From assembly GCF_009687845.1 (NCBI RefSeq), contig NZ_BLAD01000039.1:1-64000 (forward strand): DNA of 64,000 nucleotides. Direction: 5' to 3'. A program made the translations under genes and the position numbers. The notes below the pieces were generated by a model, which saw only the letters and a program-made list of their open reading frames with translations, had not been told where the DNA came from and did not search any database. The DNA comes from Acrocarpospora corrugata. GTDB lineage: Bacteria > Actinomycetota > Actinomycetes > Streptosporangiales > Streptosporangiaceae. This document shows positions 1 through 28,223 of this stretch, piece after piece (position 1 is the stretch's first letter; each line of letters starts with the position of its first letter).

Positions 1-423
1 GAGGGAGAGCGCGAGCACCGGAGCGGGAATAGGGCCAGGTGTTCTGCTCGCCGGGTTCCTGCACAACGTGATGTCGTAATTCGTACCTCCGGCGGGGCAC
101 TCCGACCCCGGGGTGATCATCAAGGGCCTCCACACCGTGGACGGCCATAGCGGGCGGAGGCAGGGGTTTGATCACCCCTCCCTGCATCGACCCGGGACAA
201 GCCGAGCAGACCAAAGGCCGCCGGGTCTGCTTCCCTATCGGGCGGGTCGACGGCAGCCGGGGTGATCAAGCAGGCGAGGCATGCGTGCTGCGCGGAAAGA
301 ACCAGGTCACAGGCTGGTCGTCGTGCCATTAGCCAGGGGGACGAGAGGGCGACACGGTCACTCATGCCCGGCCCCACGCCCGGGTCAGCGCCCCTATGAG
401 CCGTGTCCGTGCGATTGAGCTGT
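1..423. other. Non-coding stretch left of the insertion sequence
   Basis: I see no convincing gene here. The one longer open frame (minus strand, 120-443) has no recognisable domain and runs into the insertion-sequence end. The ten-base motif GGGGTGATCA occurs at 110-119 and 259-268 and inverted at 169-178. If the tRNA fragment at 4543-4586 is an attachment scar, this stretch lies inside the integrated element. Confidence 0.4.
110..268. repeat. Three copies of GGGGTGATCA
   Basis: Copies are at 110-119 (direct), 169-178 (inverted) and 259-268 (direct). Each is centred on the palindrome TGATCA. The spacing is uneven (59 and 90 bases), so this could be a cluster of protein-binding sites or chance in GC-rich DNA. 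No gene start follows directly. Confidence 0.3.
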
Positions 424-2162
424 GCTAGCCCCGTTTTCCGCACGTGGCTGATCTTCAGCGGAGGTCTCGGGGATCTACGTCGAGTAGATCGAGAAGGCGG
501 AGCTGAAGATCGGTCGGTTGAGGAATGATCGGTGGTGACTGGCCGGTACCAGAGATGATCCGGATACCGGCCAGTGCGTCGAAGATGAGCCGTCCGGTGG
601 GGACGGCGGCCCGCCCCGCGTACAGGCCCTCGACCTTGGTGGCCTCGCGTACGGCCAGTCCTGCCGTACCTGGCGTTCGACCAGGCAGAAGATGAGCAAG
701 GCCAGGCAGATGACGGTGATCAGCTCGGCGACGCGGCGGTTGTTCTTCAGGTACAGGGTGGTCACGGCCAGCGGGCCCTTGAACGCGGAGTAGCGGCGTT
801 CGACGGCCTCTTGGCCTTTGTAGAGCCGAAGGATCTGCTCGGCGTCGGCATGGCCGGGATCGAGGTTGGACAGCAGGGCGTACCAGCCGTCGGCGGCTGC
901 CTCGGCGTCGATCGCGTTCTGGTCGAAGTGCCAGGCCAGGGTGGGTTTCCCGGTATCGGGGGCGATGCCGGCCTCGGCGTGGAGATAGCCGGCCACCCGC
1001 CGATCACGGGCGATGACGGCGATCCGGTCGGCGACCTTGCCGGGGGTGGGATAGTGGCGGCTGCCCAGCCCGCGTTCCAATCGCTGCAGGTCATCGCGGG
1101 CGCGGTCGAGTTTCTTGGCCCGGGCGGTGGCGGCGGCCCGAGCCCGGGCCGAGGAGTGCACGAACACCCGCCGCAGCTTCACGACCGGGTCCTTCTTACG
1201 GGGGCCGGGCAGCGTCATGCCGTCTTCGAGCACGTGCCAGAGGCCCCGCCGCTCGGCGGGTTTGCCCGCGCCCCGCCGGGCGAGGTAGTCGACCGGAGTC
1301 GCCGCGGCCAGATCCAGGCCGCGCAGCACCTGGACGCCGACATAGGTCTTGGACGCCGGGGCGATGAAGCCGACCTGCTCGGCTGCCATCGCCGCCAGGT
1401 TCGCATACGAGATCAGTTTGGAGTCGCCGACCATCAGCAGTTGCTGCCGGGAGGCCAGGGCCTGCAGTGCCTTCATCACGCCGACGACCTGCCCGACCTC
1501 CCCGGCGCCGCCGTCGAAGGCGCGGTGGAAGAGCGGGAGTGCGCCATCACCCGACACCGCGATCCCGGCCTGGATCTGCTTCAGATCCGGGCGGCGGTCC
1601 TTGGGATGACCGAACTTCGGCGCGGCGAAGTTCTCTTCGGCCTGCTCGTAGACACCGTGCAGGGAGATCGATGTCATGTCCCAGTGCATCCGGGAGGCGT
1701 CGACGCCGAAACGCTCGATCGCGCTCAGTCCTGCGGACCCGGCGAGGTGATCGAGGTGGGGGGCGATCGCGTCCAGTGCCCGGCCGATCCTGTCATCGTT
1801 GAGCAGGTCCGGATCGACGCCGAATGTCTCGGCCACCGCCCATGTCCTGGCCCACTCTTGCACGTGGACCAGCGGGGCGGGCGAGGTCAGCCGGTTGGCG
1901 ACCAGCACCTCGATGACCTGTCCGTGGGTGAGCTCAGCCAGGTCACGTACCGGGCACGCCTCATCGACCAGCTCCCGGATCCGCAGCCGGGAACAGAACT
2001 CGGCCACCACCGGCAGCGCCCCGAGCATCTTCTCGATGCTTGGGGGTGCCCCACTGTGCTTGTTGTCTCACGGGCCCAGGGCATACTCCCAGCGACAGGG
2101 CTGATCAACACGCCACGCCGGAGATATCCCAATCACCCCGACGTGCGGAAAACGGGGCTAGC
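424..2162 (-). mobile_element. IS1634-family insertion sequence
   Basis: The two ends carry a perfect 22-base inverted repeat at 424-445 and 2141-2162, with core CCCCGTTTTCCGCACGT. Because the outer bases GCTAGC are themselves palindromic, the element may really start at CCCC and be flanked by a direct CTAG target duplication. That would give an element of about 1.73 kb. It encodes one transposase on the minus strand, which is frameshifted, so the copy is probably unable to move by itself. The right end meets the last codon of a small lipoprotein gene. Confidence 0.85.
455..2028 (-). pseudogene. IS1634-family DDE transposase, frameshifted
   Basis: This is a transposase with an RNase H-like DDE fold. 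The first Asp is in the motif DMTSISLHGVY (about residue 117), the second in VGDSKLIS, and the catalytic Glu lies in the stretch EAVERRYSAFKGPL near the C-terminus. The uninterrupted frame from ATG 2028 ends at 475, but its last 60 or so residues are low-complexity. Reading one base over from about position 659 restores the family tail (LAVREATKVEGLYAG through LLDLLDVDP) with a stop at 455-457. A single-base deletion at about 659-660 explains this. IS1634 transposases are normally a single frame, so programmed frameshifting is not expected. No better start lies upstream: the frame is open for only 13 codons and lacks ATG or GTG. Confidence 0.85.
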
Positions 2163-2580: not shown

Positions 2581-2841
2581 ATGTCGATCACTGCGAGCGA
2601 AGCCCGGCGCCGGCTGTTCCCTCTCATCGACGAGGTGAACGAGGACAGCCTGGCCGTGGAGATCGTCTCCAAACACAACCGCGCCTATCTCGTACCCGCC
2701 GCCGAGTACGAGGCGCTGAAGGAGACGGCGCACCTCCTGCGCTCACCGGCCAACATGCGCAGGCTGATCGCCTCCTACCAGCACGCCCTGGAAGGCCGTC
2801 ACGAAATCCGCGAACTCATCGACGGCGACGACCAGGCGTGA
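2581..2841 (+). CDS. yefM: YefM/Phd-family antitoxin
   Basis: This 86-residue protein begins MSITASEARRRLFPLIDEV, the typical N-terminal DNA-binding fold of Phd/YefM antitoxins. Its C-terminal half is charged (about residues 55-86) and should wrap the toxin. ATG 2581 has a GGAGG ribosome site six bases upstream. The stop overlaps the toxin start (GTGA at 2838-2841), so the two are translationally coupled. It neutralises the YoeB toxin and, by family knowledge, represses the operon from the GGTAC palindrome upstream. The frame is intact. Confidence 0.93.
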   Translation: MSITASEARRRLFPLIDEVNEDSLAVEIVSKHNRAYLVPAAEYEALKETAHLLRSPANMRRLIASYQHALEGRHEIRELIDGDDQA

Positions 2842-3092
2842 AGCTCTCCTTCACCCCTGAAGCCTGGGAGGACTACACCTCCTGGCTCACCACCGACCGC
2901 CAAGTCCTGAAACGCATAAACAAGCTCATCGAAGACACCCTGCGCGACCCGTACGCAGGCATCGGCAAACCAGAACCGCTCAAACACGCCCTCCAGGGAG
3001 CCTGGTCCCGAAGAATCACCGAAGAACACCGGCTCGTCTACCTCCCACGCGACGACGAACTGATCATCCTTCAGGCCCGCTACCACTACTGA
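2838..3092 (+). CDS. yoeB: YoeB/Txe-family mRNA interferase toxin
   Basis: The 84-residue length equals E. coli YoeB. The segment GKPEPLKH and the motif WSRRITEEHRLVY are almost identical to YoeB. The C-terminus ARYHY retains the catalytic His and the terminal Tyr, and the general base Glu and catalytic Arg lie in the conserved central part. YoeB is a ribosome-dependent endoribonuclease that cleaves mRNA at the A site. The GTG start at 2838 overlaps the antitoxin stop. Both genes look functional, which fits a module stabilising an integrated element. Confidence 0.93.
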   Translation: MKLSFTPEAWEDYTSWLTTDRQVLKRINKLIEDTLRDPYAGIGKPEPLKHALQGAWSRRITEEHRLVYLPRDDELIILQARYHY

Positions 3093-3222: not shown

Positions 3223-3777
3223 TCAGGTGTTCTTCACGGTGCGGTGCAGACGCAGGGCGGAGATGAGGAAGAAGACGCCGCCGACGGTCGCGTATCCGGC
3301 GAGGCTTGTCAGCGATGCCGTCGGCGTACCGGCCTGGAGGATGAACACCGTCCCGGCGATCGTGGAGATCGCCCCGCTGAGAATCATCGCCCATTGGCCG
3401 CCGAGCCTGCGGCGGCTGACGGCCACGATGAGCTGCACGATTCCAGCTGTGATCGCCCAAGCGCCCCAGACGCGCAGCACTGCGGGCACGCCCGAGTTGG
3501 CTGTGGCGGCCAGGCCGATGGCGGCGAGCAGGCTGAGGGCCAGGTTGACGTACAGGGCGGCGGGGCGCGCGGGTTTCGAGGAGCGCAGATCGGTGATGGC
3601 CGCGGCGACGTCGAACAGCGGGTAGATCACTAGCAGTGCCACGCTCATTGGACCAGAAGCCGACCCGATCAGGAACAGCAGGACCGCCCAGATGAGGGCG
3701 AATCCGAATCGCACCACGTAGAGGTTCCGCAACGCCACGGCAGTGCGACGGGCGTTCATATCAGTGACGGTGGTCAT
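3223..3777 (-). CDS. DUF308 (HdeD-like) membrane protein
   Basis: This 184-residue protein has about six hydrophobic helices with short loops, in the paired-helix pattern of the DUF308 short-repeat family (related to HdeD). It has no signal peptide and should be a plasma-membrane protein of unknown function. It is divergent from the TetR gene at 3886, with a near-perfect palindrome between them, so it is the likely target of that repressor. ATG 3777 is the first Met of the conserved frame. Confidence 0.7.
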   Translation of the reverse strand: MTTVTDMNARRTAVALRNLYVVRFGFALIWAVLLFLIGSASGPMSVALLVIYPLFDVAAAITDLRSSKPARPAALYVNLALSLLAAIGLAATANSGVPAVLRVWGAWAITAGIVQLIVAVSRRRLGGQWAMILSGAISTIAGTVFILQAGTPTASLTSLAGYATVGGVFFLISALRLHRTVKNT

Positions 3778-3885: not shown

Positions 3886-4470
3886 ATGATCACGGGCATG
3901 GACAGCCCCATGCGTGAGCGCCTCCTTGAGGCGGCGATCGAGCTGTTCTACGCGTACGGACTCCGCGCGGTGAGCGTCGACAAGGTCATCGACCGCGCCA
4001 GTACGACGAAGGTGACCTTCTACCGACATTTCAAGAGCAAAGACGACCTCGTCGTCGCTTACCTCGAACGCCGCGCCGCATTCGAGCGGGACGGCATCGG
4101 TGAGGCGATCAAGCAGGGCAACGGCAACGTCGATGCCACCCTGCGGGTGATCTCCGAGGCGATCGGGATCATTGCCTGCGCGCCCGGCTTCCGTGGCTGT
4201 CCCTTCATCAACGCCGCCGCCGAATACCCTGACCCGGACAGCCCTATCCGCAAGGCCGTTGACGCGCATCGCCGCTGGAACAAGTCGACGTTCGAACAGC
4301 TCATCGTCCCGCTCGGTATCACGAATTCCGGAGAGGTCGCCACCGACCTGATGCTGATCCGCGATGGCGCCATGGTCGCCGGATACCTCGACCAGCCGGC
4401 GAACGTCGCCGCCTCGTTCCTCCGCGGTAGCCAGGCCGTCATCGGCACCGGCAACTCGACCCGGAGATGA
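3886..4470 (+). CDS. TetR/AcrR-family transcriptional regulator
   Basis: This protein has 194 residues. The N-terminal helix-turn-helix spans about residues 9-55, with a typical core (LLEAAIELFYAYGLRAVSVDKV then TKVTFYRHFKSKDDL). The rest is an all-helical ligand-binding domain containing CAPGFRGCPFINAAAEYPD, a segment common in one actinobacterial TetR subgroup. ATG 3886 is preceded by AGGAGAG at a good distance. The gene is divergent from DUF308 and probably represses it and itself from the palindrome at 3806-3825. The ligand is unknown. Confidence 0.9.
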   Translation: MITGMDSPMRERLLEAAIELFYAYGLRAVSVDKVIDRASTTKVTFYRHFKSKDDLVVAYLERRAAFERDGIGEAIKQGNGNVDATLRVISEAIGIIACAPGFRGCPFINAAAEYPDPDSPIRKAVDAHRRWNKSTFEQLIVPLGITNSGEVATDLMLIRDGAMVAGYLDQPANVAASFLRGSQAVIGTGNSTRR

Positions 4471-4542
4471 GCCCGCCGCCCACTCGACCAGCTCTGACCT
4501 GCACCCCGTTTCCCAGCTCAGGGCAGCAAGGCCAGCAGATGG

Positions 4543-4586
4543 TTCCCAAGCTGACAGCGCGGGTTCGATTCCCGTCACCCGCTCCA
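4543..4586 (+). other. 3' fragment of tRNA-Gly(CCC), candidate attachment site
   Basis: From 4543 the sequence reads as the 3' half of a tRNA. The anticodon loop is TTCCCAA (anticodon CCC), followed by the 3' anticodon strand GCTGA, T-arm GCGGG-TTCGATT-CCCGT, acceptor strand CACCCGC, and TCCA. The 5' half is missing: upstream bases give no D-arm, no matching anticodon strand and no GCGGGTG acceptor strand. Integrases that use tRNA 3' ends leave such a copy at the far end of the element. With this orientation the element would lie to the left and the intact tRNA-Gly beyond position 1. No integrase is visible in the window. Confidence 0.7.
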
Positions 4587-4847
4587 CGTACTGAGGCCCA
4601 GGTCAGGGATGGATTCCCGACCCGGGCCTAGATTGTTTTCTAGGGCTGTTGATCTTTCTGTGCCATCAGCTCACCGGGGCCATCGCAGCGGCCAGGCCGT
4701 CGTCTCCCTCGTCGTCTCGCTTCTTGATCTGGCGGTTAATGGCGTCGGTGATCATCTGGTTCTGCGCCGCGCACGGCGTGCTGATAGATCAGGATGCTCG
4801 ATCCGAACCACGCCGGTCTCCATATCCCAACGGAGTCGACGCGGTCG

Positions 4848-6275
4848 TCAACTTGCGGGGCGACGGGTGAGGACGTCCCCGGGTCGAGTTGACCCGGGTC
4901 CGGCTGGGCGGTGCGTCGCACTGATGGGTTCGCGGCCAGTTGCTGCGTCGGTGCCCATGGCCTCCAGCCAGGCCCGGGCGGCGAGCAGTCGGCGGTTGCG
5001 GCCGTCGTCGGTCTCGAGCCCGAGTTTGGTGAAGATACGCCGCAGATGTGTCTCGACGGTGCGGTGTGAAAGGTGCAGGTGCTCGGCGATGGCCGCGTCG
5101 CGGGCGCCCGTGGCGACGAGGGCGAGAACCTCGCGCTCACGAGGGCTGAGCACTTCGAGCCCTGGGGGTGACTCCGTGCCCGGCCGCGGTGGCGCCGGTG
5201 GTACGTCTGAAGGCGCCGGTGGCTCGGCGGGCTGAGGACCGAGGGGTACGGCGAACCCCGTCAGCGCGGCGGACGCCCGCCACCAGGCGACCCCGATGAC
5301 GGCCGTGACAGCGGCCACGGCGAGACCGGAGATCAACGGGCCTTCGGGGCGGAGCACAGCCCCGGTCCAGGTCACCGCGAGCGTCACGCCGATCGCGGCG
5401 TACCCACCGAGCACCCCAGACAGCAGCCAGCGCACCACCGGGGGACGGGCTCCGGTGGTGGACACGATGAGCGCCCACGCGCCGGCGAAGCAACCCGCGG
5501 CCAGTGAGACGAGGTATGCGACGCTGCCGTCCGGCGGCGCGATGTCGCCGGGACCGCTGGCTACGGCCGTGCCCATGCATACGACGATCAACAGGGGTCC
5601 CACAGCCGCGGCGGCCGCGCCCAGCGTGGCGCTCGCGCGTTCGTCCGCCGGGACGCGGCGCACGCGATTTGCCAGGAACAGCACGGCGGCGAGCATCACG
5701 ACGCTGATGAGGATGGTGGAGGCAGCTGCGACAGCGGGTGTCCGCCAACCCTCCGCAGCTGCCGGCGGGTGGCCGGCGAACGGTTTCACCGGCTCCAGTG
5801 CCAGCGCCATGCGGACGGCGGCGCCGGCAACGACGACGCCGAACCCGATCGACCACCAGCGGGCGCGAGGCACGGCGCGCAGCGCCGCGAGCTGCAGCAC
5901 GGCGAGCGGTACGGGCCACCATCCACCCCAGGCGCCGACGAGGAGAGGCGCCATGCCGGAATCAGCGGTGACCGCGACGACGGCGAGTGCACCGAGCACG
6001 AGGTAGATGAGGACGGCGGCTGCCAGCGCGAGGAGCCAACCGCCGCCGGTACGGTCGCCCCGGTCGGTCAGCCGTCGGGACAGCAATGCGATCCCGGTCG
6101 CGCCGCCCGTGAGGGCGAGCGTCGAGATCGGGTGGGTCGCGTAACCGCCGGTACCGCCGGCACGCGCGAAGGCGAGTATGACCACCGAGCCCAGCCCGAG
6201 TCCCGCGATGAACAGGACGGGCACGAGACTCCGCCACCGCCCCAGAACGCCGGGCCACATGCTTGCGTCGTGCAA
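4848..6275 (-). CDS. Membrane-anchored LuxR-family regulator
   Basis: This protein has 475 residues. The first 340 or so form about ten hydrophobic helices with no recognised sensor domain. A Pro-rich linker (around residues 350-375) leads to a C-terminal LuxR/GerE helix-turn-helix (LSPREREVLALVATG, then SHRTVETHLRRIFTKLGL, about residues 383-430). It is therefore a one-component regulator that senses from the membrane. The TTG start at 6273-6275 is supported by GGGGAGGG five bases upstream; an ATG five codons later is too far from it. The Pr6Pr membrane-protein gene is divergent 176 bases away and may be its target. Confidence 0.8.
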   Translation of the reverse strand: MHDASMWPGVLGRWRSLVPVLFIAGLGLGSVVILAFARAGGTGGYATHPISTLALTGGATGIALLSRRLTDRGDRTGGGWLLALAAAVLIYLVLGALAVVAVTADSGMAPLLVGAWGGWWPVPLAVLQLAALRAVPRARWWSIGFGVVVAGAAVRMALALEPVKPFAGHPPAAAEGWRTPAVAAASTILISVVMLAAVLFLANRVRRVPADERASATLGAAAAAVGPLLIVVCMGTAVASGPGDIAPPDGSVAYLVSLAAGCFAGAWALIVSTTGARPPVVRWLLSGVLGGYAAIGVTLAVTWTGAVLRPEGPLISGLAVAAVTAVIGVAWWRASAALTGFAVPLGPQPAEPPAPSDVPPAPPRPGTESPPGLEVLSPREREVLALVATGARDAAIAEHLHLSHRTVETHLRRIFTKLGLETDDGRNRRLLAARAWLEAMGTDAATGREPISATHRPAGPGSTRPGDVLTRRPAS

Positions 6276-6451
6276 TCGGCCCTCCCCTATCCGGAAGCGA
6301 GTTTATCCGGACAAGGCATGCCAGGCCCAGATTCAGGGCTACCCCGTACACCGCAGGGGCCATGTCAGGGCTGCTCCGGATACCGGCTCTGACCTCAGCA
6401 CGCCAGATTGCTCGGTAGTACCCCACACATACTCGATCAGAGAGGTATCCC

Positions 6452-7165
6452 GTGGTCGCTGCTTCTCCCGCACGTCCTGGTCCGATCCTGCCCGTCCTCG
6501 TCGCGGCCGCGCTGCTGCTGGTCGCGACGGTCACCTTCGTGGTCATCGATCCGCTGCTCGCCTGGGACGATGCCAACCCGTTCCTCGGTCGCGGCCGACT
6601 GTTCCTGTACTTCACGACCCAATCGAACCTGCTGGCCGTGACTGCCTGCGTGGTGTTCGGGGTCGCGCTGGTGCGTGGCCGGCATCCGGGCCAGGCGGCC
6701 GAGTACTTGCGCGGGCTCGCCGTGGTGGACATGGCCATCACCGGGATCGTCGCCAACGTCCTGCTCGCCGAACCGGGGGCGCCATGGAGCTTCTCCGACT
6801 TCGTGCTCCACCAGGCGGTGCCGGTCCTCATGGTCGCGTGGTGGATCGTCGTGCCGCCCGCCCGGCCGCTGCCCGTCACCGCGGCGGCGCTGTGGCTTGT
6901 CCACCCGGCCATCTGGACGGCCACGGCCCTCACCTACGCGGCCGAGTCGAGCGACCATTGGTACCCGTACTTCTTTCTCGATCCCGTTGAGGCAGGCGGA
7001 TGGGGCGGTGTCGCCGTGTTCGTAGCCTTGATCCACCTCGTGATTGCCGTACTCGGTCTTGGTGCCGTGCTTGCCAGCAGGGCACGGTGGTCAGGCGGCG
7101 TGTGGCGAACGTTGTGGCGCGAAGAGCACCCGGAAGGGGTCGACCACGGTCACTCACGACGGTGA
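6452..7165 (+). CDS. Pr6Pr-family membrane protein
   Basis: This 237-residue protein has about six transmembrane helices. It carries the family signatures YFTTQSNLLA (about residue 50), a His-Gln-x-x-Pro in the middle (HQAVPVLMVAWW) and WYPYFFLDP near the C-terminal third. Pr6Pr proteins are related to the FAR-17a/AIG1 androgen-induced hydrolase fold, but their bacterial role is unknown. GTG 6452 follows GAGAGG. It stands divergent from the membrane LuxR regulator and just ahead of the AfsR-like gene. Confidence 0.7.
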   Translation: MVAASPARPGPILPVLVAAALLLVATVTFVVIDPLLAWDDANPFLGRGRLFLYFTTQSNLLAVTACVVFGVALVRGRHPGQAAEYLRGLAVVDMAITGIVANVLLAEPGAPWSFSDFVLHQAVPVLMVAWWIVVPPARPLPVTAAALWLVHPAIWTATALTYAAESSDHWYPYFFLDPVEAGGWGGVAVFVALIHLVIAVLGLGAVLASRARWSGGVWRTLWREEHPEGVDHGHSRR

Positions 7166-7203
7166 GAACAGGTGGATGGCTCGGCGAAGCCTAGACTTGC
7201 GCC

Positions 7204-10200
7204 ATGCCGATCCACCTGAGCCTGCTCGACGGTGTGCAGTGGCGGGGGCGGCCGGTGGTCGGCGAAAGGGCTCAGGCGCTGCTCGCAGCCCTCGCGCTCG
7301 CCTGCCGAACCGTGAACGCTGACCGGCTCATCGCGGAGGTGTGGGGGGACAGCGAACCGGCCAATCCGGCGAAGGCGCTGCAGGTCCTGGTGTCCAGGAC
7401 CAGGTCGGTCGTGGGGTCGGAGTCGCTGATCACGGAAGGGGGCGGCTACCGGCTCGCGGTTCCGCCCGACCGGGTCGACGCCGGTCGGCTGCACGGTCTG
7501 GCGGGCCGGGCGTGGGCGCTGCTCGTCGAGAATCCGGCCTCGGCGGCCGCGGCGGCGAAGGAGGCGCTCGCGCTGGGCCTCGGGGCGCTGTCGCCCGCGG
7601 GCGGTGGCCCGCTGGCCGAGGTGCGCCGACGCGCGGAACGCGACCTGGCATCCGCGCGGGTCGTGCTCGCCCGGGCCCGGAGCCGCAGCGGCGACCATGG
7701 CCCCGCCCTGCCCGAGCTCGAGGAGGCAGTGCGCGTCCACCCCGAGGACGAGGGGCTGCTCGCCGACCTCCTGCACAGCGAGGCGGCGGTGCGCGGAACG
7801 GGCGCCGCGCTGGACCGCTTCGAGCGCTACCGGTCGGACCTGCGCGACCGGATCGGCGCCGACGTCGGCCCGGAGCTGCGGCGGGTCCATCGTGAGCTTC
7901 TGGCGCTCGACAGTCCCGTGCGCGCCGGCGTGCGCTTCGACACGACCACGCTGCTCGGCCGCGACGACGATCTCCGACGGGTGCGGGCACTGCTCTCCGC
8001 CTCCCGGGTGGTCTCGATCCTCGGTCCGGGCGGCCTCGGCAAGACCCGGCTCGCCCACGCCGTCGCCCGCGAGGCCCCGCAGCCGGTGGTGCACTTCGTC
8101 GAACTGGTCGGCGTGACCGCGCCCGAGGACCTGGTCGGCGAAGTCGGGTCTGCGCTCGGCGTCCGCGACTCGGTGACCGGACGCCGCACCCTTACCCCGC
8201 AGCAGCGCGCCGACGTCCGGGCCCGGATCGCCCAGCAGCTCGGTCTGGCCCCGACGCTGCTGGTGCTCGACAACTGCGAGCATCTGGTGTACGCGGTCGC
8301 CGACTTGGTCGCGTATCTGACCGCGACCACACGGGAGCTGCGCGTTCTCACCACAACCCGCTCGCCCCTGGCGATCGCCGCCGAACGCGTCTATCCGCTG
8401 CCCCAGCTGGGAACCGGTGACGCCGTCGAACTGTTCCGCGACCGCGCGACCGCGGCCAGGCCCGGTGTGCACCTCGACGAGGATGACGTGCGCGCCGTCG
8501 TGGCCCGCTTGGACGGCCTGCCGCTCGCGATCGAACTGGCCGCCGCGAAGGTGCGGGTGATGTCACCGGTCGAGATCGCCCGCCGGCTGGAGGACAGGTT
8601 CTCGCTGCTACGCGGCGGCGACCGGAGCGCCCCCTCCCGTCACCAGACGCTGCTATCGGTGATCGACTGGTCCTGGAACCTCCTCGGCGAGCGGGAGCGC
8701 CGCGCCCTCCGCCGCCTCTCGGCTTTCCCGGACGGCTTCGCCCTCGACGCGGCGGAGGAGGTGCTCGGCGACGACGCTCTCGGCGACGTCGAAGAGCTCG
8801 TGGAGCAGTCCCTGCTCACCGTCGTGGAGACAGCCGAGGGCGTTCGGTACCGCATGCTCGAGACGGTGCGCGAGTTCGGCCGGATGCGGCTGGACCGGGC
8901 CGGCGAGACCACCGACGCGCGGGCCGCCATACGCGAGTGGGCCGTCGGTTACGGCCGCCGGCACGGTGCCCGGCTGTACTCGCCGGAGCAGGTCGACGCG
9001 ATGGACCGGCTGCGTTCTGAGGAGACGAACCTCGCCGACATCCTGCGCGAGGCCCTCGCCGACCCCGACCCGGAAGCGGTCGTGGTGCTGTTCTCCGCTC
9101 TGGGTGGCTACTGGACGGTCTGCGGGGATCACCCGCGCAGCATCGTCATGGCCCCGGCCGTCGCCGCCGCCCTGAGCGGCTGGGCGCCTCCACCCCGGCT
9201 CCTCGACCGGACCCGGCTGGCCCTGAGCATCGCGCTGTTCAACACCATGATCGTCCCTCTCGAAGAGTCAGGGACGCTGGCGCGACTGCTGTCTGGGCTG
9301 GGCGCCGACTCGGCGAACCCGGCCGTCCGGGCGCTGGTGACCGCCCTGCTCACCACGGTGTCGGATCCCGAGGGCGGCTTGGACGTACTGGCCGCCGATA
9401 CCGACCCTCTGATCCGCCGGATCGCGCTGCACTGGCTGAGCCACGGCCGGGAGAGCGCCGGCGACCCGGTCGGCGCGATCGAAGCGGCCCGAGCCGCCCT
9501 CGAACTCGTCGGCGATGACGACGGTCCCTGGCACCGGGCGGTGCTGCACACCCAGCTGGCCGGCCTGTACGCGCACCTCGGTGACTCCGCGTCGGCCGCC
9601 AGGCATGCCACCGAGGCGCTCCCGGTGCTCGAACGCCTCGGGGCGATGGACGACGCCATCCAGATCCGCACCACCCTCGCCATGGCGGCGCTGGCTGAGG
9701 GGCGCCGCGACGAGGCCGCACGGATGATCGACGACCTGGAGGCGCTCGCTTCCCAGGGCACCTACAGCGAGGTCCTGTCCGTCGCCACCGGCCGAGCCCA
9801 ACTGGCCCTCGCCGACGGCGACATCGCCGAGGGACTGCGGCGGCACCGCGAGACCGCCGAGGTGCTCAGGAACCTGCGCGTCCCGGACGCCTTCACACCG
9901 TGGGCCGACCTGAGCGAGGTCATCGCGCTCTCGGCGTTCGCGCAGTACAGCGAGGGCGACGACGGCGCGGACCTCTTCGAGTCTGTGCGGGCCAAAGTCC
10001 TGATGGTGTTCGACCCTGACCGCGCCTCGAGGGATTACCCGGTGACGGGGATGGTGCTCGCCGGGCTGGGCATCTGGGGCCTGCGAAAGGGGGCGCTGCC
10101 CGCCGAGGAGGCGGTCCGGCTGCTCGTGCTCGCCGACCGGTTCGCCTACAACCAGTTCACCCCGACGATGCAGTGGTCGGTGCTGTCCGCGCACGCCGAA

Positions 10201-10305
10201 CGGATCGCCCCCGGCGTCATATCCCGGATCGAGGCCGAATACGGCGACCGACGCGGCCCCGACCTGCTGGCCGAGGCCCGTACCGTCCTGGAGCGGGTGG
10301 TCTGA
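7204..10305 (+). CDS. AfsR/SARP-like regulator (BTAD, NB-ARC, TPR)
   Basis: This protein has 1033 residues. Residues 1-90 are a winged-helix domain of the OmpR/SARP type and residues 95-235 the bacterial transcriptional activator (BTAD) helical domain. A STAND/NB-ARC ATPase follows, with Walker A GPGGLGKT at 274-281 and Walker B in TLLVLDNCEHL. The C-terminal half is alpha-helical, TPR-like repeats. AfsR-type proteins activate antibiotic or stress genes in actinomycetes. It converges on a DrrAB-type exporter with only six bases between stops. ATG 7204 was chosen because the conserved frame begins there. Confidence 0.85.
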   Translation: MPIHLSLLDGVQWRGRPVVGERAQALLAALALACRTVNADRLIAEVWGDSEPANPAKALQVLVSRTRSVVGSESLITEGGGYRLAVPPDRVDAGRLHGLAGRAWALLVENPASAAAAAKEALALGLGALSPAGGGPLAEVRRRAERDLASARVVLARARSRSGDHGPALPELEEAVRVHPEDEGLLADLLHSEAAVRGTGAALDRFERYRSDLRDRIGADVGPELRRVHRELLALDSPVRAGVRFDTTTLLGRDDDLRRVRALLSASRVVSILGPGGLGKTRLAHAVAREAPQPVVHFVELVGVTAPEDLVGEVGSALGVRDSVTGRRTLTPQQRADVRARIAQQLGLAPTLLVLDNCEHLVYAVADLVAYLTATTRELRVLTTTRSPLAIAAERVYPLPQLGTGDAVELFRDRATAARPGVHLDEDDVRAVVARLDGLPLAIELAAAKVRVMSPVEIARRLEDRFSLLRGGDRSAPSRHQTLLSVIDWSWNLLGERERRALRRLSAFPDGFALDAAEEVLGDDALGDVEELVEQSLLTVVETAEGVRYRMLETVREFGRMRLDRAGETTDARAAIREWAVGYGRRHGARLYSPEQVDAMDRLRSEETNLADILREALADPDPEAVVVLFSALGGYWTVCGDHPRSIVMAPAVAAALSGWAPPPRLLDRTRLALSIALFNTMIVPLEESGTLARLLSGLGADSANPAVRALVTALLTTVSDPEGGLDVLAADTDPLIRRIALHWLSHGRESAGDPVGAIEAARAALELVGDDDGPWHRAVLHTQLAGLYAHLGDSASAARHATEALPVLERLGAMDDAIQIRTTLAMAALAEGRRDEAARMIDDLEALASQGTYSEVLSVATGRAQLALADGDIAEGLRRHRETAEVLRNLRVPDAFTPWADLSEVIALSAFAQYSEGDDGADLFESVRAKVLMVFDPDRASRDYPVTGMVLAGLGIWGLRKGALPAEEAVRLLVLADRFAYNQFTPTMQWSVLSAHAERIAPGVISRIEAEYGDRRGPDLLAEARTVLERVV

Positions 10306-10311
10306 CACCGT

Positions 10312-11160
10312 CTACATCTTGCGGGAGTAAGAGCGGACCGCCAGTGGAGCGAAGATCAAGACGACGATCACGCAGCCGATGACCGCCCAGCCGACCTCGG
10401 CCGTCACGGCCCCGTCGTTGAACAGGTCCCGCACCGCGGAGACGACGTGCGACACCGGGTTGACCTTCACGAACGCCTCCAGCCAGCCGGGCAGCGTCTC
10501 GGCGGGGACGAAGGCGTTGGACAGGAAGGTGAGCGGGAACATGATCATCATCGAGATGCCCTGGACACTCTGCGCCGAACGCGCCATCGTGCCCAGCCAG
10601 GCGAAGATCCACGCCAGCGACCAGCCTGCGATCACGGTCAGTGCGACGCCGCCGACGCAGCCGAGCACCCCGCCGCCGGGGCGGTAACCGATGAGCAGGC
10701 CGGTGACGAGCGTCAGCACCGACGCGATGCCGTAACGGATCAGGTCGGCGATCATCGGGCCGGCCAGCGGAGCGATTCTTGCGATCGGCAGGGACTTGAA
10801 GCGGTCGAAGACCCCCTTGTCCATGTCCTCACGCAGCTGCACGCCTGTTGCCATGCAGACGGTCAGGGCCGTCTGGGCGAGGATGCCGGGGATCAGTACC
10901 GGGAGGTAGTTCGACACGCTGCCGGAGATCGCGCCGCCGAAGATGAACGCGAACATCGCCGTGAACAGCAAGGGCTGGATGAGGACGTCGAAGAACTGCT
11001 CGGGCTTGCGGCGCATCTTCTTCAGGGCTCGCCATGCCATCGCCAGGATCTGAACCCAGGTTTCCTGAAGCGAACTGCGGGGCGTGGTACGGGCGACCAC
11101 GGTGGACGAGTCGACGCGCTGGGGGTTGAGGGTGGCCGGGGTCATGGTTCTCGTGGTCAT
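10312..11160 (-). CDS. ABC-2 type exporter permease (DrrB-like)
   Basis: This 282-residue protein has an N-terminal cytoplasmic stretch and six hydrophobic helices. It contains the ABC-2 membrane signature seen in DrrB (segments FDRFKSLPIARIAPLAG and MMIMFPLTFLSNAFVPAETLPGWL). It should form the membrane channel for the ATPase encoded just upstream. Its ATG overlaps that gene's stop (11157-11160), so the two are co-translated. DrrAB systems export hydrophobic drugs such as anthracyclines; the real substrate here is unknown. Confidence 0.88.
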   Translation of the reverse strand: MTTRTMTPATLNPQRVDSSTVVARTTPRSSLQETWVQILAMAWRALKKMRRKPEQFFDVLIQPLLFTAMFAFIFGGAISGSVSNYLPVLIPGILAQTALTVCMATGVQLREDMDKGVFDRFKSLPIARIAPLAGPMIADLIRYGIASVLTLVTGLLIGYRPGGGVLGCVGGVALTVIAGWSLAWIFAWLGTMARSAQSVQGISMMIMFPLTFLSNAFVPAETLPGWLEAFVKVNPVSHVVSAVRDLFNDGAVTAEVGWAVIGCVIVVLIFAPLAVRSYSRKM

Positions 11161-12125
11161 CGGGCCGCCTCCATCTGAGACTTGGCGGCGCCGTGGCCGG
11201 TCAGCGCCAGGAAGACTTCGTCCAGCGTCGGCTTGGCGACGCTTACCGAGGAGATGCCGAGGCCTGCTTCTCGCAGGCCGATCAGGACGTCCGCGGCTCG
11301 GTCGGCGTCGGGGAGGGGGATCTTCATGCGTCCTGATTCCGGGGTCAGGACCGGGTCCTCACCCAGCAGCAGGCGGACGACGTTCGCGGCCATGGCGACG
11401 TCGACGCCGTCCGCGAGGCTGAGCTGCAGGGTTGAGTCGCCGACCTGGGTCTTCAGTGCGTCGGGGGTGTCTTCTGCGACCTTCCGGCCTCGGTCGATCA
11501 CGGCTACGCGGTCGGCCAGCTGGTCGGCCTCGTCCAGGTATTGGGTGGTGAGGAGGATCGTGGAACCATCGGTGGCCAGCTCGCGGATGGTGTCCCACAT
11601 CTGGCCTCGGGTTCTTGGGTCCAGGCCGGTTGTGGGCTCGTCCAGGAAGATCAATGGTGGGCGGGTGATCAGGCTTGACGCCAGATCCAGGCGGCGGCGC
11701 ATGCCGCCGCTGAACTGGGACAGGGGACGGTCGGCCGCCTCCTGGAGGTCGAAACGTTGGAGCAGGTCATCGGCGATTGTCTTGGCTCGGGCGCTGGTCA
11801 GGCCCTGTAGGCGGGCGAACAGCCAGAGGTTCTCCCGGGCGGTCAGGTCCTCGTCCACCGAGGCGTACTGGCCGGTGACGCCTACCAGCTGGCGGATGCG
11901 GTGGGGTTCCCGCCGGACGTCGACGCCGAAGATCTCCGCATGGCCGCCGTCGATCGGGAGCAGGGTGGCGAGCATCCGGAGCATGGTGGTCTTACCTGCT
12001 CCGTTGGGGCCCAGGACTCCGAAGATCTCGCCTTGCCGTACGTGAAGGTCGATTCCGTCCACGGCGCGGAAGTCTCCGAAGTTCTTGACCAGACTGTCGG
12101 CCCGGACGGCACTGAGGTCCGCCAT
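11157..12125 (-). CDS. Daunorubicin-resistance-type ABC ATPase (DrrA-like)
   Basis: This 322-residue ATPase has Walker A GPNGAGKT at 39-46, signature FSGGMRRRLDLA and Walker B PLIFLDEPTTGLD. It also has the extra C-terminal domain typical of DrrA, ending in the motif KPTLDEVFLALTGH. It drives the permease encoded directly downstream. A GAGAGGAG ribosome site precedes ATG 12125. The gene order (ATPase then permease, ATGA overlap) is standard for the family. Confidence 0.9.
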   Translation of the reverse strand: MADLSAVRADSLVKNFGDFRAVDGIDLHVRQGEIFGVLGPNGAGKTTMLRMLATLLPIDGGHAEIFGVDVRREPHRIRQLVGVTGQYASVDEDLTARENLWLFARLQGLTSARAKTIADDLLQRFDLQEAADRPLSQFSGGMRRRLDLASSLITRPPLIFLDEPTTGLDPRTRGQMWDTIRELATDGSTILLTTQYLDEADQLADRVAVIDRGRKVAEDTPDALKTQVGDSTLQLSLADGVDVAMAANVVRLLLGEDPVLTPESGRMKIPLPDADRAADVLIGLREAGLGISSVSVAKPTLDEVFLALTGHGAAKSQMEAAR

Positions 12126-12297
12126 GACGCGTCTCCTCTCTCCGCCGGGTACCTCCCGGCGTCAGAAGAGAGCTTCTGCGTTGTCGGCTTCATCGTGGCT
12201 TCAGGCAGGTTTCACCTCTGACCAGGCGGTTTCACCGGCTCCGGTGTCCTGGCCTTGACGAGAGGGGTACAGAGCCAAGGCGCGCTGGCCATGTGAC

Positions 12298-12345: not shown

Positions 12346-13897
12346 TCAGCCGAACGTACCTATGCCGTTCTCGATCTGGACCACGTTCGCCGGGAGTACC
12401 GACTTCGTCGGCGTGGTGTAATTCGTACCGATCTTGCCCTTGCCGATCTGACCGTGCGTGTGGTTGCCCCAGCCGAAGAGCTCGCCGGTCAGCCCGCCCG
12501 GCGGCGCGTCCGGCGAGCCGCTGTCGCAGTCGTCGACGCCGTTGCCGAGGAACTCGATCTGGCCGGGGTGGATCGCCGCGTCGGTGTCGTCGCAGTCCGT
12601 GGTGGCCGTCCAGTTGTCACCGTCCGCATCGGGCCGGTGGACCAGCACGTCCCAGGCCTTGGTGGCCTGGTGCCCGTCGGCGTCGGTCGCGGTCGCGACG
12701 ACCTGGTGCGCGCCCGGGGTGTTCGGAGCAGTCCAGGACAGCGACCCACCTTGCCGGCCGAGTCCCCGTCGACGCTCCAGCTCACGGCGGGGGCGCCGCC
12801 CTCATCGGTCGCGGTGACCGCGAAGACCGCGGTCGCGCCGGTCCGCACCACCGGTTGCACGTTGTCCGGCGACGCACCCGACAGTTGCGGTTCCGCGCCC
12901 TTGCGGGTCACGGTCGCGCCGCTCCACGCGTACGCGATGCGGCCGACGCTGTCGGTCACCCGCAGCCCGACCACCGGCGTGCCCGGTTCGCCGAAGGTGA
13001 CCGTCGGCGTCGCCCCGTCGGCGTCGTCGAAGTCGCGGTCACCGTCCAGGTCCCAGGCATACGACGCGAGCGTCGCCCCGCCGCGTGCGGCCGAGGCGGT
13101 CCCGTCCAGCTTGACCGGCTCACCCTCGGTCGCGGTGTACGGGCCGCCGGCGTGCGCCGTCGGGTGCGGGTCGGGCACGAGCGGGTCCCCCGCCAACGCG
13201 TCCACGATGGCGCCCCAGGCGGTGAGCCCTTGTATGCCTCCACACTACGCAGCAGCGCCTCGGCCAGCGCGCCCTCACCCGCGATGGCGTCCGTCGGCGC
13301 GTCCACGGACTTGGGCACCACCGGCTGGTCGAAGTCCGGGTTCGGCGGGTCCTCGTAAATGCCCAGGTAGTGCTGGCCCTGGTTGAGCAGCAACCCGTCG
13401 AACTGCTACTGGATCGGGCTGAAGTAGTTGCCGTACTTCAGGTTGCCGGCCTTGCACCCGTTCTTCAGCGCCTTCTGGACGAACTTCCACACCCGGTTCA
13501 TGACCTGCCGGGTGGTCTTCCACGACTCGTATTCCTCGTACGCCGACTGTTTGAGCGAGGTCAGCGCGGCGTCGGGCGGTGGCAGCTCGCCCGGGGTCTC
13601 GGCCTTGATCACGCGGGCGAACACCGCGTCGTCCTCAGCCTGGAAGACCCCGTCCTGGCAGGTGTCGAACACCACGTCCTACTCGCCCGCACCGAGGGCG
13701 CCGGCCGGCGTGGTGATGCCGATGACCTCGTCGTCGAACGGTGGGAAACCACGGTCGTTCACGGGGACGCACCGGCACTCGACCGCCTGACCTGCTGACG
13801 CCCGCACGCTGGGATCCCCCAGTCGGTGCACGTCGCAAGCGCGGCAATGGGGGGTCGGCGGACTTCTTCTTGGCGGCTGAAGTAGCCCGCTTACCAC
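12346..13897 (-). pseudogene. Broken secreted protein with PKD, MopE-type and RCC1 segments
   Basis: One long coding frame can be followed from about 13897 to 12346 with four lesions. In-frame TAG codons interrupt it at about 13676-13678 (context GE*DVVFDTCQDG) and 13403-13405 (SPIQ*QFDGLL). Single-base deletions occur near 13222 (restoring KGLTAWGAIVDALAG) and near 12750 (restoring GSLSWTAPNTPGAHQ). The repaired product has an N-terminal part of unknown family, a PKD domain (AHAGGPYTATEGEPV onward), a MopE-like metal-binding motif (DADGDNW...DCDDTDAAIHPG...GNGVDDCD) and one RCC1 blade (GELFGWGNHTHGQIGKG). No signal peptide or start survives, so the 5' end is also lost. Confidence 0.8.
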
Positions 13898-17905: not shown

Positions 17906-18807
17906 GCTTGGCGGACGTGGCCGGTGCCGGTCGGCTGCCCGACCTGACCGGCCTGCTGGACACCTGCCACGTCGGAGGGTTCAGGGCTGACTTCGTCAGC
18001 TGGGGGTTCTACACCAAGCCCGCCTGGCGCAACTACTGGCACCGGCACTCCTTCCACGAGGTTTGCCTGGTCTACACCGGTGCGGGCCGGTTCAGCGTCG
18101 GCGGGGAACACCATGACGTCGGCACCGGTGAGGTGTTCCTGGCCAGGCCGGGTGATGTGCACGAGATCGAGTCGAGCCGGGAGGACCCGCTCGGCATCGC
18201 CTTCTGGGGCTTCACCCTGCGGGGCGGCCGGGAGGCTCCGGGTCCGGACGAGCGTGGCTGGTGGTCCGGCCTCACCGACCCCGCCGGTCCCGTGGTGTCG
18301 CGCCGTACCGGCTCGCTGGCCGAGGTCGTCACCGCACTCGCCGGGTACGCCGACCCGGTGCGGTCCGGGTACGACGCCGGCCTGGCCGGTCTCGGCGCCG
18401 CGCTGGTGGTGGACACCGCCAGGGCGTTCGCGAACGAGGACGACCTGGCGGTCGAGCCGCCTCCCAGGGACCGGCCGTCCCAGGTGGTGGCGGCGATGCG
18501 GCGGCACCTCGCCGACAACCTGTGCCGGCCGGTCAGGGTCAGGGATGTGGCCGCCACCGCTCACCTGTCCGAACGGCACGCCGAGCGGCTGTTTCGCGAG
18601 CAGACAGGCGCGTCCCTGATGGCGACCCTGCGCAGGATGCGGCTCGAACTGGCCGCCGCCCTGCTGCTGGACACGGGTCCCACGGTGACGGAAATGGCCA
18701 GGGCCTGCGGCTACCCCGACGTCCGCGCCTTCAGCACGGCTTTCCGCCGTTTGCACGGACACTCACCGCTTGAACACCGCGCCCGCAGCGGAACCCTGCA
18801 CCTGTAG
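17902..18807 (+). CDS. AraC-family transcriptional regulator
   Basis: This 301-residue protein has an N-terminal AraC-type cupin (about residues 25-110, with WHRHSFHEVCLVYTG and GEVFLARPGDVHEI). The C-terminal double helix-turn-helix spans about residues 195-295 (VAATAHLSERHAERLFREQTG and RACGYPDVRAFSTAFRRLHG). The TTG start overlaps the PhyH stop by four bases. It probably activates the operon when a small molecule fills the cupin. The frame is intact. Confidence 0.88.
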   Translation: MSLADVAGAGRLPDLTGLLDTCHVGGFRADFVSWGFYTKPAWRNYWHRHSFHEVCLVYTGAGRFSVGGEHHDVGTGEVFLARPGDVHEIESSREDPLGIAFWGFTLRGGREAPGPDERGWWSGLTDPAGPVVSRRTGSLAEVVTALAGYADPVRSGYDAGLAGLGAALVVDTARAFANEDDLAVEPPPRDRPSQVVAAMRRHLADNLCRPVRVRDVAATAHLSERHAERLFREQTGASLMATLRRMRLELAAALLLDTGPTVTEMARACGYPDVRAFSTAFRRLHGHSPLEHRARSGTLHL

Positions 18808-18815
18808 CGACAACC

Positions 18816-19124
18816 TTATGGGCCGGGTGGGGGCGTGAATATCGAATGAGTTCCGATCCGCCGCCACACCACGTGGGGCTCACCAGGGATCTGTTCCTCT
18901 CCGTAGCTGAAGGTGGCCCGCCCGTCACCGTCCCAAGTCATCTCAAAAACGCCGGGATGAGCGGTGACGCCCTTCACCCGCAGCCCTGGGCGGAAGGGCC
19001 GCTCGGGTGCGGCCAGATCAGGTACGAACGACTCCATCACGACCTTGCGGAACAGCGCCTGTCGCGACTCAGGGAGCTTCTTCCAGTCACGCTCGAATCG
19101 CGGCGTGGTCTCGAAGGTCGGCAT
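18816..19124 (-). CDS. RelE-like toxin of a type II toxin-antitoxin pair
   Basis: This protein of 102 residues begins MPTFETTPRFERDWKKLPESRQ, the usual N-terminal helix of RelE-superfamily toxins. It ends in strands with VFEMTWDGDGRATFSYGEE and VVWRRIGTHSIF. Catalytic residues of RelE are poorly conserved and I cannot assign them. It starts one base within the stop of the AbrB-type gene (TGATG), the standard antitoxin-toxin order. It presumably acts on mRNA or another translation target. Confidence 0.7.
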   Translation of the reverse strand: MPTFETTPRFERDWKKLPESRQALFRKVVMESFVPDLAAPERPFRPGLRVKGVTAHPGVFEMTWDGDGRATFSYGEEQIPGEPHVVWRRIGTHSIFTPPPGP

Positions 19125-19459
19125 CAGTCGTCCGCCGACCCCAGCTTGTCCAGGTGAGCGAACATGTCCTCCGCGGACTCGTGCTTGGTCCCTCGCTCAA
19201 GCCTGATGTCCTCGTCCGCCTCCCGCTCTCCCGCCAGCCACTCCGGAGCGAAGAACCAGGCCTGATCGGTGGGAATGGAGATGTAACCCCGCACAGTGAT
19301 CGTGCCATCGTCCGCGACCGCGAACTCCACCTCGTCTCCCTCACCGATATGGAGTGCCTGACGAACCTCCTCTGGCAGGGTGAGCTGCGACTTCGCGCGA
19401 ACCTTTGCGCGCGCTCTCAACCGCGGCTCCGGCTGTACCTTGCCTGAGAGCGTTGCCAC
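19124..19459 (-). CDS. AbrB/MazE-type antitoxin
   Basis: This protein of 111 residues has a swapped-hairpin AbrB DNA-binding domain at about residues 19-60 (AKSQLTLPEEVRQALHIGEGDEVEFAV). A charged tail (ERGTKHESAEDMFAHLDKLGS) follows, likely to contact the toxin. The pairing of an AbrB antitoxin with a RelE-like toxin is known in actinobacteria. An inverted repeat 22-40 bases upstream of the start is a candidate operator. Confidence 0.75.
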   Translation of the reverse strand: MATLSGKVQPEPRLRARAKVRAKSQLTLPEEVRQALHIGEGDEVEFAVADDGTITVRGYISIPTDQAWFFAPEWLAGEREADEDIRLERGTKHESAEDMFAHLDKLGSADD

Positions 19460-19480
19460 GATCCACCTCCATCACACATT

Positions 19481-19499
19481 CGGATTCTCCGATAATCCG
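19481..19499. promoter_or_regulatory. Inverted repeat upstream of the AbrB antitoxin
   Basis: CGGATT (19481-19486) and AATCCG (19494-19499) are perfect inverted copies with a seven-base spacer. The site lies 22 bases upstream of the antitoxin start on the minus strand, the place expected for autorepression by an AbrB-type antitoxin. Confidence 0.5.
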
Positions 19500-19623
19500 A
19501 CTCTACCCGCTCATGCAGTCATCTACGCATCCGCTCATAGCCTCCGTGACCTTCAGGTACGGTGCCGTCCCCAGCCTGCTGGATACGGCCTGTTTGTTGG
19601 ACGCACCGCCTGATTGGGCACAG

Positions 19624-26665: not shown

Positions 26666-26683
26666 GCCGTCCGTCCCAACCGG

Positions 26684-28159
26684 TCACGAACCTGTGTACA
26701 ACCGCTCCAGTCCTACCAACTGCACCCGCCCGTCGCTGCGGGCCGCTGCCTCCTGCAACGCCGGCATGAACCCCACCCCGCTGAACAGCAGCAGCCGCCC
26801 CGGCGCCTCGCCCCTGGCCGCGAGTAGCGCCGCCACCCGCTCCAGCCGCTCCAAGTGCCCGAGCCCCACAATGTCCCCCCACTTGGCCTCCCCAATGGCG
26901 AGCAGCACGCTGTCGGGGCCACGGACTGCCACGTCCACCTCGTGGCCCGTACGGGTGGCGACGTCGTGAACAACCCCGGACTGGACGCTTCCGGCCATGT
27001 CACCCAGCGTCTCCTCAGACGCGAAATCCTCACACCACACCCGGCACATCCGCTCGTACACCGGCCCCGCCACGTTGCTGCGGAAGCGGGGCTGGGCGGT
27101 GTGCCAGATCCGCTCGGTACGCCCCTGCCGCACCCGTTCCAACTGCGCCCAGTAGGGCCGCATGATCGAGTGGTAGAAGCGGACCAACGGCTCGGTGATC
27201 CGGTACTCAGAGCGGTTCCGGCGGAAGGCGTCAGGGTCGGCCACCAGGAGGCCGGCGTCCTCCAGCACGGTCAGGTGGTGGGAGATGTCGACGGCCTTGC
27301 GCTCGATTCTGCCCGCGATGCCGCTGCGGGTCGCGTTGCCCTCGGCGACCGCGGCCAGGACCGTGTGATAGAGGCCGGTGTCGCGTAGCGCCGGATCCTC
27401 GGCGAGCAGGAAACGCACCTCGCGGAAAAGGGGACTGGCCGGGTTGAGCACGTATTCGACGACCCAGCGGTCGAAGTCGGCCAAGCCCGCCGGGGCGATC
27501 CCGGCCAGATACTCGGTGCGGTAGGCGGGGGTGCCGCCGACGACGAAGTAGACCAGGGCCGCCAGGCGAGGCTCGGCCGCCAGCCCCCAGAACTCGGCGG
27601 CCTGCCGGAAGTTGAAGGTGGGCACCACCAGTTCCAGCCCGGCCCGCCCGCGCAGCGGCGCCTGACCGGAGAGCAGGCCGCCCATGAAGGAGATCGACGA
27701 TCCGCACAGCAGCAGACGTGACCTGGACATCCCCCGCTGCTCGCGGCGTGGCGACAGTGCTTTCTGGATGACCGACGGCAAGTCCTTGGCGTCGCGTACC
27801 AAATAGGGGAACTCGTCCAGGACGACGGGGACGGTCCGCTCGGCGCCCAGGAAGAGCAGGCCGTCGATCGCCTCCTCCCAGTTTTCGAACCTGACCCGTC
27901 CCGGCGTCCCGGCGAAGGCGGAGACGGCCTCGCCGAGTTGGCGCAGTGCCTCCGCCCTGGGCACGGCCTCGGTGGCGGCGTAGTAGAAGCCGCCTGTCTC
28001 CTCGCAGACGGCTTCCAGCAGGAACGTCTTGCCCTGTCGGCGCCGTCCGGAGACCACGCCGAGGGTGGCGCCCCGGGACTCGTTGGCGACGAACCGCGAG
28101 AGCTGTTCCCACTCCCACTCGCGGTCGAACATGTCCGATGGCCGCGGCAACGACATCAT
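26684..28159 (-). CDS. DUF234-type STAND ATPase
   Basis: This protein of about 490 residues is a P-loop ATPase, with Walker A GRRRQGKT (about residue 40) and Walker B VPVVLDEFPYL (about 115). A winged helix follows (ISHHLTVLEDAGLLV). The C-terminal DUF234 domain has the nuclease-like pattern HEVDVAV...LLAIGEAKWG. Bacterial and archaeal relatives are single-gene, often mobile or defence-associated, with unknown role. ATG 28157-28159 and the adjacent ATG share a GAAGG ribosome site; a TTG three codons upstream is less likely. A strong AT-rich palindrome lies just upstream. Confidence 0.8.
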   Translation of the reverse strand: MMSLPRPSDMFDREWEWEQLSRFVANESRGATLGVVSGRRRQGKTFLLEAVCEETGGFYYAATEAVPRAEALRQLGEAVSAFAGTPGRVRFENWEEAIDGLLFLGAERTVPVVLDEFPYLVRDAKDLPSVIQKALSPRREQRGMSRSRLLLCGSSISFMGGLLSGQAPLRGRAGLELVVPTFNFRQAAEFWGLAAEPRLAALVYFVVGGTPAYRTEYLAGIAPAGLADFDRWVVEYVLNPASPLFREVRFLLAEDPALRDTGLYHTVLAAVAEGNATRSGIAGRIERKAVDISHHLTVLEDAGLLVADPDAFRRNRSEYRITEPLVRFYHSIMRPYWAQLERVRQGRTERIWHTAQPRFRSNVAGPVYERMCRVWCEDFASEETLGDMAGSVQSGVVHDVATRTGHEVDVAVRGPDSVLLAIGEAKWGDIVGLGHLERLERVAALLAARGEAPGRLLLFSGVGFMPALQEAAARSDGRVQLVGLERLYTGS

Positions 28160-28170
28160 GACCTTCAATT

Positions 28171-28205
28171 TTTAGGAGTACAGTACTTAAAAGTGTACTC
28201 CTAAA
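28171..28205. promoter_or_regulatory. 11-base inverted repeat ahead of the DUF234 ATPase
   Basis: TTTAGGAGTAC (28171-28181) and GTACTCCTAAA (28195-28205) are perfect inverted copies with a 13-base AT-rich spacer. It is 12 bases upstream of the ATPase start. It may be an operator bound by the ATPase's own winged helix, or a hairpin in the leader. Its low GC stands out from the surroundings. Confidence 0.6.
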
Positions 28206-28223
28206 TCCGCACCGGGGGTGTGG

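Follow-up and report, generated by a model that had tools for sequence, protein, structure and literature searches.

A tRNA-Gly(CCC) 3' fragment in Acrocarpospora corrugata: a likely internal boundary in a row of units integrated behind one tRNA gene

The window analyzed here, a stretch of 64,000 nucleotides, forms the left edge of contig C39 of Acrocarpospora corrugata, and the contig starts 4.5 kb ahead of a 3' fragment of tRNA-Gly(CCC) (Table 1). The fragment, TTCCCAAGCTGACAGCGCGGGTTCGATTCCCGTCACCCGCTCCA, matches the intact tRNA-Gly(CCC) at 44/44 positions over its final 44 bases, which run from the anticodon loop through CCA. The base preceding it is G in the window and C in the tRNA, and no trace of the tRNA 5' half was found leftward of 4543. 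The initial annotation had claimed such a 3' match lacking the 5' half, and its coordinates proved exact, with every base identical. When a 29-base piece of the fragment was searched with up to three mismatches, there was one match in the window and none in 100 shuffles. Neither ARAGORN nor Rfam called a tRNA at 4543 to 4586, as expected for half a tRNA, which indicates that the fragment is not a gene. Its edge carries TTCCCAA, the seven-base anticodon loop. The anticodon loop is a usual crossover site of tyrosine integrases.

Table 1. Features on both sides of the tRNA-Gly(CCC) fragment in the window
Feature	Position	Strand	Remark
Relic junction, class B arm, core lost beside IS end	335..416	+	profile E 6.8e-4
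IS1634-family insertion sequence, inverted ends GCTAGCCCCGTTTTCCGCACG	424..2160		
IS1634-family transposase	475-2028	-	
YefM/Phd-type antitoxin	2581..2841	+	
YoeB toxin	2838..3092	+	E 1.9e-39
DUF308 membrane protein	3223..3777	-	
TetR-family regulator	3886..4470	+	
Element-side arm, class A ('..CCCAGCTCAGGGCAGCAAGGCCAGCAGATGG')	4481..4542	+	non-tRNA sequence, recurs ahead of other fragments
tRNA-Gly(CCC) 3' fragment (attachment core)	4543..4586	+	identical to intact tRNA on C83
Terminator-like stretch	4587..4640	+	common to DNA after intact tRNA and after other fragments
Next cassette	4837..7139		93% identical in Planotetraspora kaengkrachanensis
LuxR-type membrane regulator, in next cassette	4848-6275	-	
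Membrane protein, in next cassette	6452-7165	+	
Truncated class B arm (AAGGGGTCGACCACGGTCACTCACGAC)	7134..7160	+	profile E 0.17, weak; abuts conserved block
Block: BTAD/NB-ARC regulator (7204-10305) and two ABC transporter genes	7164..12242		behind same tRNA in G001, G002, G009, G019
Relic class A arm	13742..13789	+	profile E 0.0021
MazE-like antitoxin and small partner ORF	18806..19547	-	92-94% identical to G001, G002 array units
Gene identical at 91-94% to array copies	26681..28206	-	copies in G001, G002, G003, G004

In the whole 9.27-Mb genome, the 29-base piece occurred exactly four times, always on the + strand: in the intact tRNA, at C83:64143, at C83:65498, and in the window. The intact tRNA-Gly(CCC) lies directly after dcd on another contig (G000:C83, approximately 60566 to 60639), and two fragments in the same orientation lie downstream of it (C83:64130 and C83:65485). 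The 60 to 110 bp upstream of each fragment are common to the fragments and are not tRNA sequence, and the terminator-like stretch downstream of the fragments is also present after the intact tRNA. An nhmmer profile of the junction matched the window at 4480 to 4639 (E 3.5e-39). The arms ahead of the cores are given here as classes A, B, and C, which were assigned by eye, with automatic clustering putting nearly all arms in one cluster. A chance tRNA pseudogene made by segmental duplication, with no tie to mobile elements, would likewise be missing the 5' half and unable to form a tRNA fold. However, we regard this explanation as refuted, given four co-oriented copies with common non-tRNA arms, integrases adjoining them in relatives, and the same 44 bases beside a phage integrase. 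The footprint of integration into a tRNA gene that had been proposed for this site was thereby borne out.

Contig C83 stops at 66255, 0.7 kb past its second fragment. C83 and C39 are probably neighbors, in the order C83 then C39, because the conserved block of the window lies on the tRNA contig, downstream of a tRNA-Gly(CCC) array, in four related genomes (G001, G002, G009, and G019). With this order, which rests on synteny in relatives, the intact tRNA is to the left of the window, and the earlier orientation argument was correct. One unit on C83, which is PemK/MazF-like, is present from end to end in G001 with 95% identity. In the first segment of this genome's array (L037, 11038-11795), a weak BrnT-like toxin has as its partner, where an antitoxin would be expected, a small NikA-like protein of mobilization type.

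The insertion sequence, the YefM/YoeB pair, and the DUF308 and TetR genes all lie, as first proposed, within the DNA that ends at the fragment, together with a small lipoprotein-like ORF. At the far left, the class B arm resembles the arms ahead of fragments in many relatives. On its left, the segment is closed by this decayed junction, next to which the IS1634-family element has inserted. The gene set of an AICE (integrase, Xis, RepSA-type initiator, and FtsK/TraB-like protein) was absent from 417-4542 and from the C83 segments.

To the right of the fragment, the next cassette has a counterpart in another genus, Planotetraspora kaengkrachanensis (G364:C31:6809-9136), where a perfect 42-base fragment precedes it at C31:6421. 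The truncated class B arm is probably the right edge of this cassette in the window. The block that follows is 96% identical in Acrocarpospora pleiomorpha (G001) and A. macrocephala (G002), 90% in G009, and approximately 88% in Planomonospora sp. (G019). In G002 it is flanked by fragments on both sides; G020 is an exception, with the block and the tRNA on different contigs. The dcd-tRNA flank, in contrast, reached only 81-84% identity in two other Acrocarpospora species. On the basis of this difference, its position between fragments in G002, and its place off the tRNA contig in G020, the block has probably moved recently.

Further traces of junctions and units were found beyond the block. Six segments (12356-13739, 16998-18810, 18806-19547, 23255-23576, 24384-25971, and 26681-28206) recur in G001 to G004, inside or near arrays; the decayed junctions extend to approximately 13.8 kb, with parts of relatives' arrays found as far as approximately 28 kb. 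The gene in the last of these segments was found once per region examined in four other Acrocarpospora genomes. No syntenic core flank was found on the right of the array: genes of C39, from the window out to 104 kb, were absent beside the tRNA in the single-copy relatives G016, G104, and G008. A clean empty site for the exact 4543 junction was looked for and not found.

The fragment had been read as marking where an integrated element ends on the right, that is, a single element on the left ending at 4587, with ordinary chromosome on the right. There is indeed one fragment in the window, it has the right orientation, and toxin-antitoxin and IS genes lie leftward of it. But three more copies of the site stand in tandem on C83, the first 2.3 kb on the right follow the same fragment in Planotetraspora, relic arms stand at 7134-7160 and 13742-13789, and pieces up to 28 kb occur within relatives' arrays. 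A single element is thus very unlikely. Together, the Planotetraspora match, the relic arms, and the recurring segments show that the fragment at 4543 is an internal boundary of a tandem array and does not close off one element on its right side, and that a plastic zone extends to approximately 28 kb or further.

Arrays of this kind are widespread in the family. When a 42-base core was counted with at most two mismatches in 341 Streptosporangiaceae genomes, it was present in 246 of them, and 45 had at least five copies. For the tRNA-Arg(CCT) 3' half, used as a control, there were 0 to 2 occurrences in each of 25 of the same genomes. The largest array, in G001, holds 13 fragments (at most three mismatches) across 64 kb. 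Fragments were co-oriented with the tRNA in every array examined, and perfect or near-perfect cores were found in the arrays of many relatives. As in tandem accretion, the direct repeats equal the 3' end of the target, the intact target stands at one end, and all copies share one orientation. The 167 fragment-to-fragment segments had a median length of 1.72 kb, with 91 of them below 2 kb; most short segments carry no integrase and yet have perfect cores. Outside the family, the class A junction pattern had no match in viral contigs, and in plasmid and phage records the core matched well but the arms did not.

A site-specific recombinase adjoins the target in relatives. Proteins with PF00589 stand beside the intact tRNA and read toward it in G001, G004, G019, G026, G034, and others; intact integrases are convergent to the tRNA, approximately 130 to 200 bp beyond the core, and nearly always in the first segment. 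The head unit of Planomonospora (G019) encodes Phage_integrase, Xis-like HTH_17, RepSA (4.5e-104), FtsK_SpoIIIE, and GntR proteins, so that the integrase, Xis, RepSA-type initiator, and FtsK/TraB-like protein of a pSAM2-type AICE occur together. An AICE-like layout, judged by eye, was seen in G034 and G001 also. Many distal units retain the 3' part of the integrase gene alone, at the same offset from the core, and most units have no integrase sequence at all; those with an integrase tail resemble CIME-like products of deletion. A leftward integrase, which had been proposed as a check, exists beside the tRNA in relatives, but the genome of the window holds none of the relevant family: its best match to the head integrase was 37% over 79 residues, and no close relative was found. 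In one genome (G204:C1:10303001-10332000; L151/L152), the intact tRNA is separated from an intact AICE by a 658-bp unit without an integrase match, and a short unit can thus occupy the tRNA-proximal slot. Propionibacterium phages carry the core as well: in phage Anatole, the 44 bases occur at 93% identity approximately 134 bp from the integrase gene (NC_041890.1 18040-24083), which indicates that distant actinobacteria also have phages that target tRNA-Gly(CCC).

Whole segments recur across species and genera amid different neighbors. Among 65 cross-genome pairs of whole segments (at least 60% of both segments), a neighbor on the same side was common to only 6. One family of units of approximately 930-1000 bp was found in G019, G111, G113, G117, G119, G333, G334, and G341, and its copy in G019 encodes a PIN-domain toxin. 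In 13 pairs, mean identity at the right junction fell from 82-83% inside to 56% and 44% past the core. At the left junction of the same 13 pairs, identity rose from 61% outside to 71-74% inside, a change that is less clean because some left ends differ. Such differing left ends of shared units are not predicted by simple unit exchange. The hexamer GTGCCA was found at 6.3 per kb at 100-200 bp before cores and at approximately 0.2 per kb elsewhere (approximately 25-fold), and its reverse complement was not enriched before cores. This directional enrichment fits arm-type integrase sites.

Core decay was polar along the arrays. Mismatches were scored against each host's own tRNA in 24 arrays with 133 fragments, and positions were permuted within arrays. 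Perfect cores made up 78% of the proximal, 63% of the middle, and 33% of the distal third, and mean core mismatches were 0.30, 0.49, and 1.35, respectively. Decay rose with distance from the tRNA (permutation p = 5e-5, an optimistic value, since related genomes are counted as independent). This reflects either entry of new units beside the tRNA or preservation of the cores nearest to it. In G020 (L126) and G062 (L132), the proximal fragments match base variants of the host tRNA-Gly(CCC), which points to local origin or concerted change.

These data bear on whether the rows might be graveyards, in which single AICE integrations decayed in place, toxin-antitoxin pairs were kept as their loss is costly, and units spread by homologous recombination or descent rather than by an integrase acting on short units. 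Many units do have integrase tails at a fixed offset, the content is rich in toxin-antitoxin genes, and decay is greater distally; Streptomyces has known cases of DAICEs and remnants sharing one tRNA (PMC9513070). Still, we consider this rather improbable as the full account, as the same short unit recurs core to core across genera with differing neighbors, independent decay to identical end points is unlikely, and many units without integrase retain perfect cores.

The reading that we favor, with a probability of roughly 0.8, is that a single tRNA-Gly(CCC) gene anchors a tandem row of integrated units and that the fragment is one of the attachment sites in this array. The array would consist of AICEs and integrase-less derivatives accreted on an integron-like scale, with short units mobilized in trans or with a neighboring AICE. 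Elements with a tyrosine integrase that recombines at the anticodon loop (TTCCCAA) would insert at tRNA-Gly(CCC). Each would bring its own tRNA 3' half, leaving the tRNA whole and turning the old 3' half, now beyond the new unit, into a fragment, and repeated events would build a row of tRNA, unit, fragment, unit, fragment. An AICE (integrase, Xis-like HTH, RepSA, FtsK/TraB-like, GntR) often heads the row in relatives, and the other units there, mostly 0.7-2.5 kb long and without integrase, commonly carry a toxin-antitoxin pair, some of them appearing to be deletion derivatives. We infer that short units move whole, via the integrase of a resident or incoming AICE acting in trans or alongside a neighboring AICE, and that most join the row on the tRNA side. 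Homologous recombination between the approximately 180-bp repeats could be an alternative route for moving whole units. In the genome of the window, the integrase would have been lost, leaving a partly decayed remnant of an array, split by the contig gap and the IS1634 element.

As reported previously, AICEs accrete at a tRNA-Arg in Streptomyces, where one to three elements are joined by a single remnant (PMC9513070). Both systems show identical direct repeats, site-specific integration that recurs at the 3' end of one tRNA, and decayed members without mobility genes. Unlike those AICEs, however, the tRNA-Gly(CCC) arrays have up to 13 cores and units of mostly 0.7-2.5 kb, and their short units appear in new orders across genera. 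In an older survey, tandem AICEs were regarded as rare and inherently unstable (PMC3218068). In Dehalococcoides, there are many tandem ssrA islands, 15 of them without integration modules and suggested to be cis-mobilizable (PMC3146451). These islands also stand in tandem behind one RNA gene, are bounded by 3'-end repeats, have the integration module on the RNA-gene side, and in many cases lack an integrase. A serine recombinase and tmRNA serve the islands, whereas a tyrosine recombinase and a tRNA are found here; reductive dehalogenase cargo and a single genus were described for the islands, whereas the sharing of short units across genera is a feature of the tRNA-Gly(CCC) arrays. In the CIME-ICE accretion scenario (reviewed in PMC5704250, after Pavlovic et al. 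2004), units without integration or transfer genes likewise retain attL and attR and are aligned with functional elements. The present arrays differ in scale, small units, toxin-antitoxin richness, and family-wide sharing.

The likeness to sedentary chromosomal integrons lies in a polar row of small mobile cassettes, often with toxin-antitoxin genes, bounded by one repeat and with an integrase at the head. The row is polar, and new cassettes beside the primary site are indicated indirectly, by the rise of core decay with distance. Remnants without integrase exist, as do integrase-less cassette clusters of integrons. However, the head integrase is not IntI (TIGR02249, 25.2 bits versus a cut-off of 265) but an ordinary phage-type integrase, and the site is a tRNA half with directional arm motifs rather than a recognized attC site. 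Cassette genes also face both directions, unlike those of integrons (70 on + and 103 on - relative to the tRNA), and thus have no common promoter. By analogy, the array may work somewhat like an integron; it departs from one in the defining points of integrase and gene orientation and is better seen as a variant of tandem accretion. A stronger proposal is that Streptosporangiaceae possess an active gene-capture system, an integron analogue, in which the integrase of a resident AICE works in trans on the tRNA-Gly(CCC) anticodon loop to insert and reorder recombinase-free cassettes of 0.7-2.5 kb, the tRNA being the family's shared cassette port. We hold this to be possible but tentative.

In the openly accessible literature, with most subscription papers outside the scope of the search, we found no description of tRNA-Gly(CCC) arrays in Streptosporangiaceae. 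Tandem arrays at one site are usually considered few and unstable; here, long rows of short, recombinase-free cassettes behind one tRNA gene occur family-wide and are exchanged across genera. They offer a ready system to ask whether an ICE integrase can do the job of an integron integrase and how toxin-antitoxin pairs stabilize rows. In addition, the 42-base core can serve as a simple probe with which to mine antibiotic-producing actinomycetes for small mobile genes, among which several Pfam families of unknown function are recurrent.

The contents of the short units were surveyed in 150 proteins. Gp49/HigB-like toxins (7), DUF5615 (6), DUF433 (6), HTH antitoxin-like proteins (6), and PIN proteins (4) were found, with single matches to PemK and AbiEii. 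For 39 flanking genes, no toxin-antitoxin family was among the 25 listed, a weak control for enrichment. PADLOC matches were rejected as defense systems, being mostly small HTH proteins. The domains of unknown function DUF6461 and DUF6247 were each found in four short-unit proteins, and DUF6247 may belong to a toxin-antitoxin pair not yet described.
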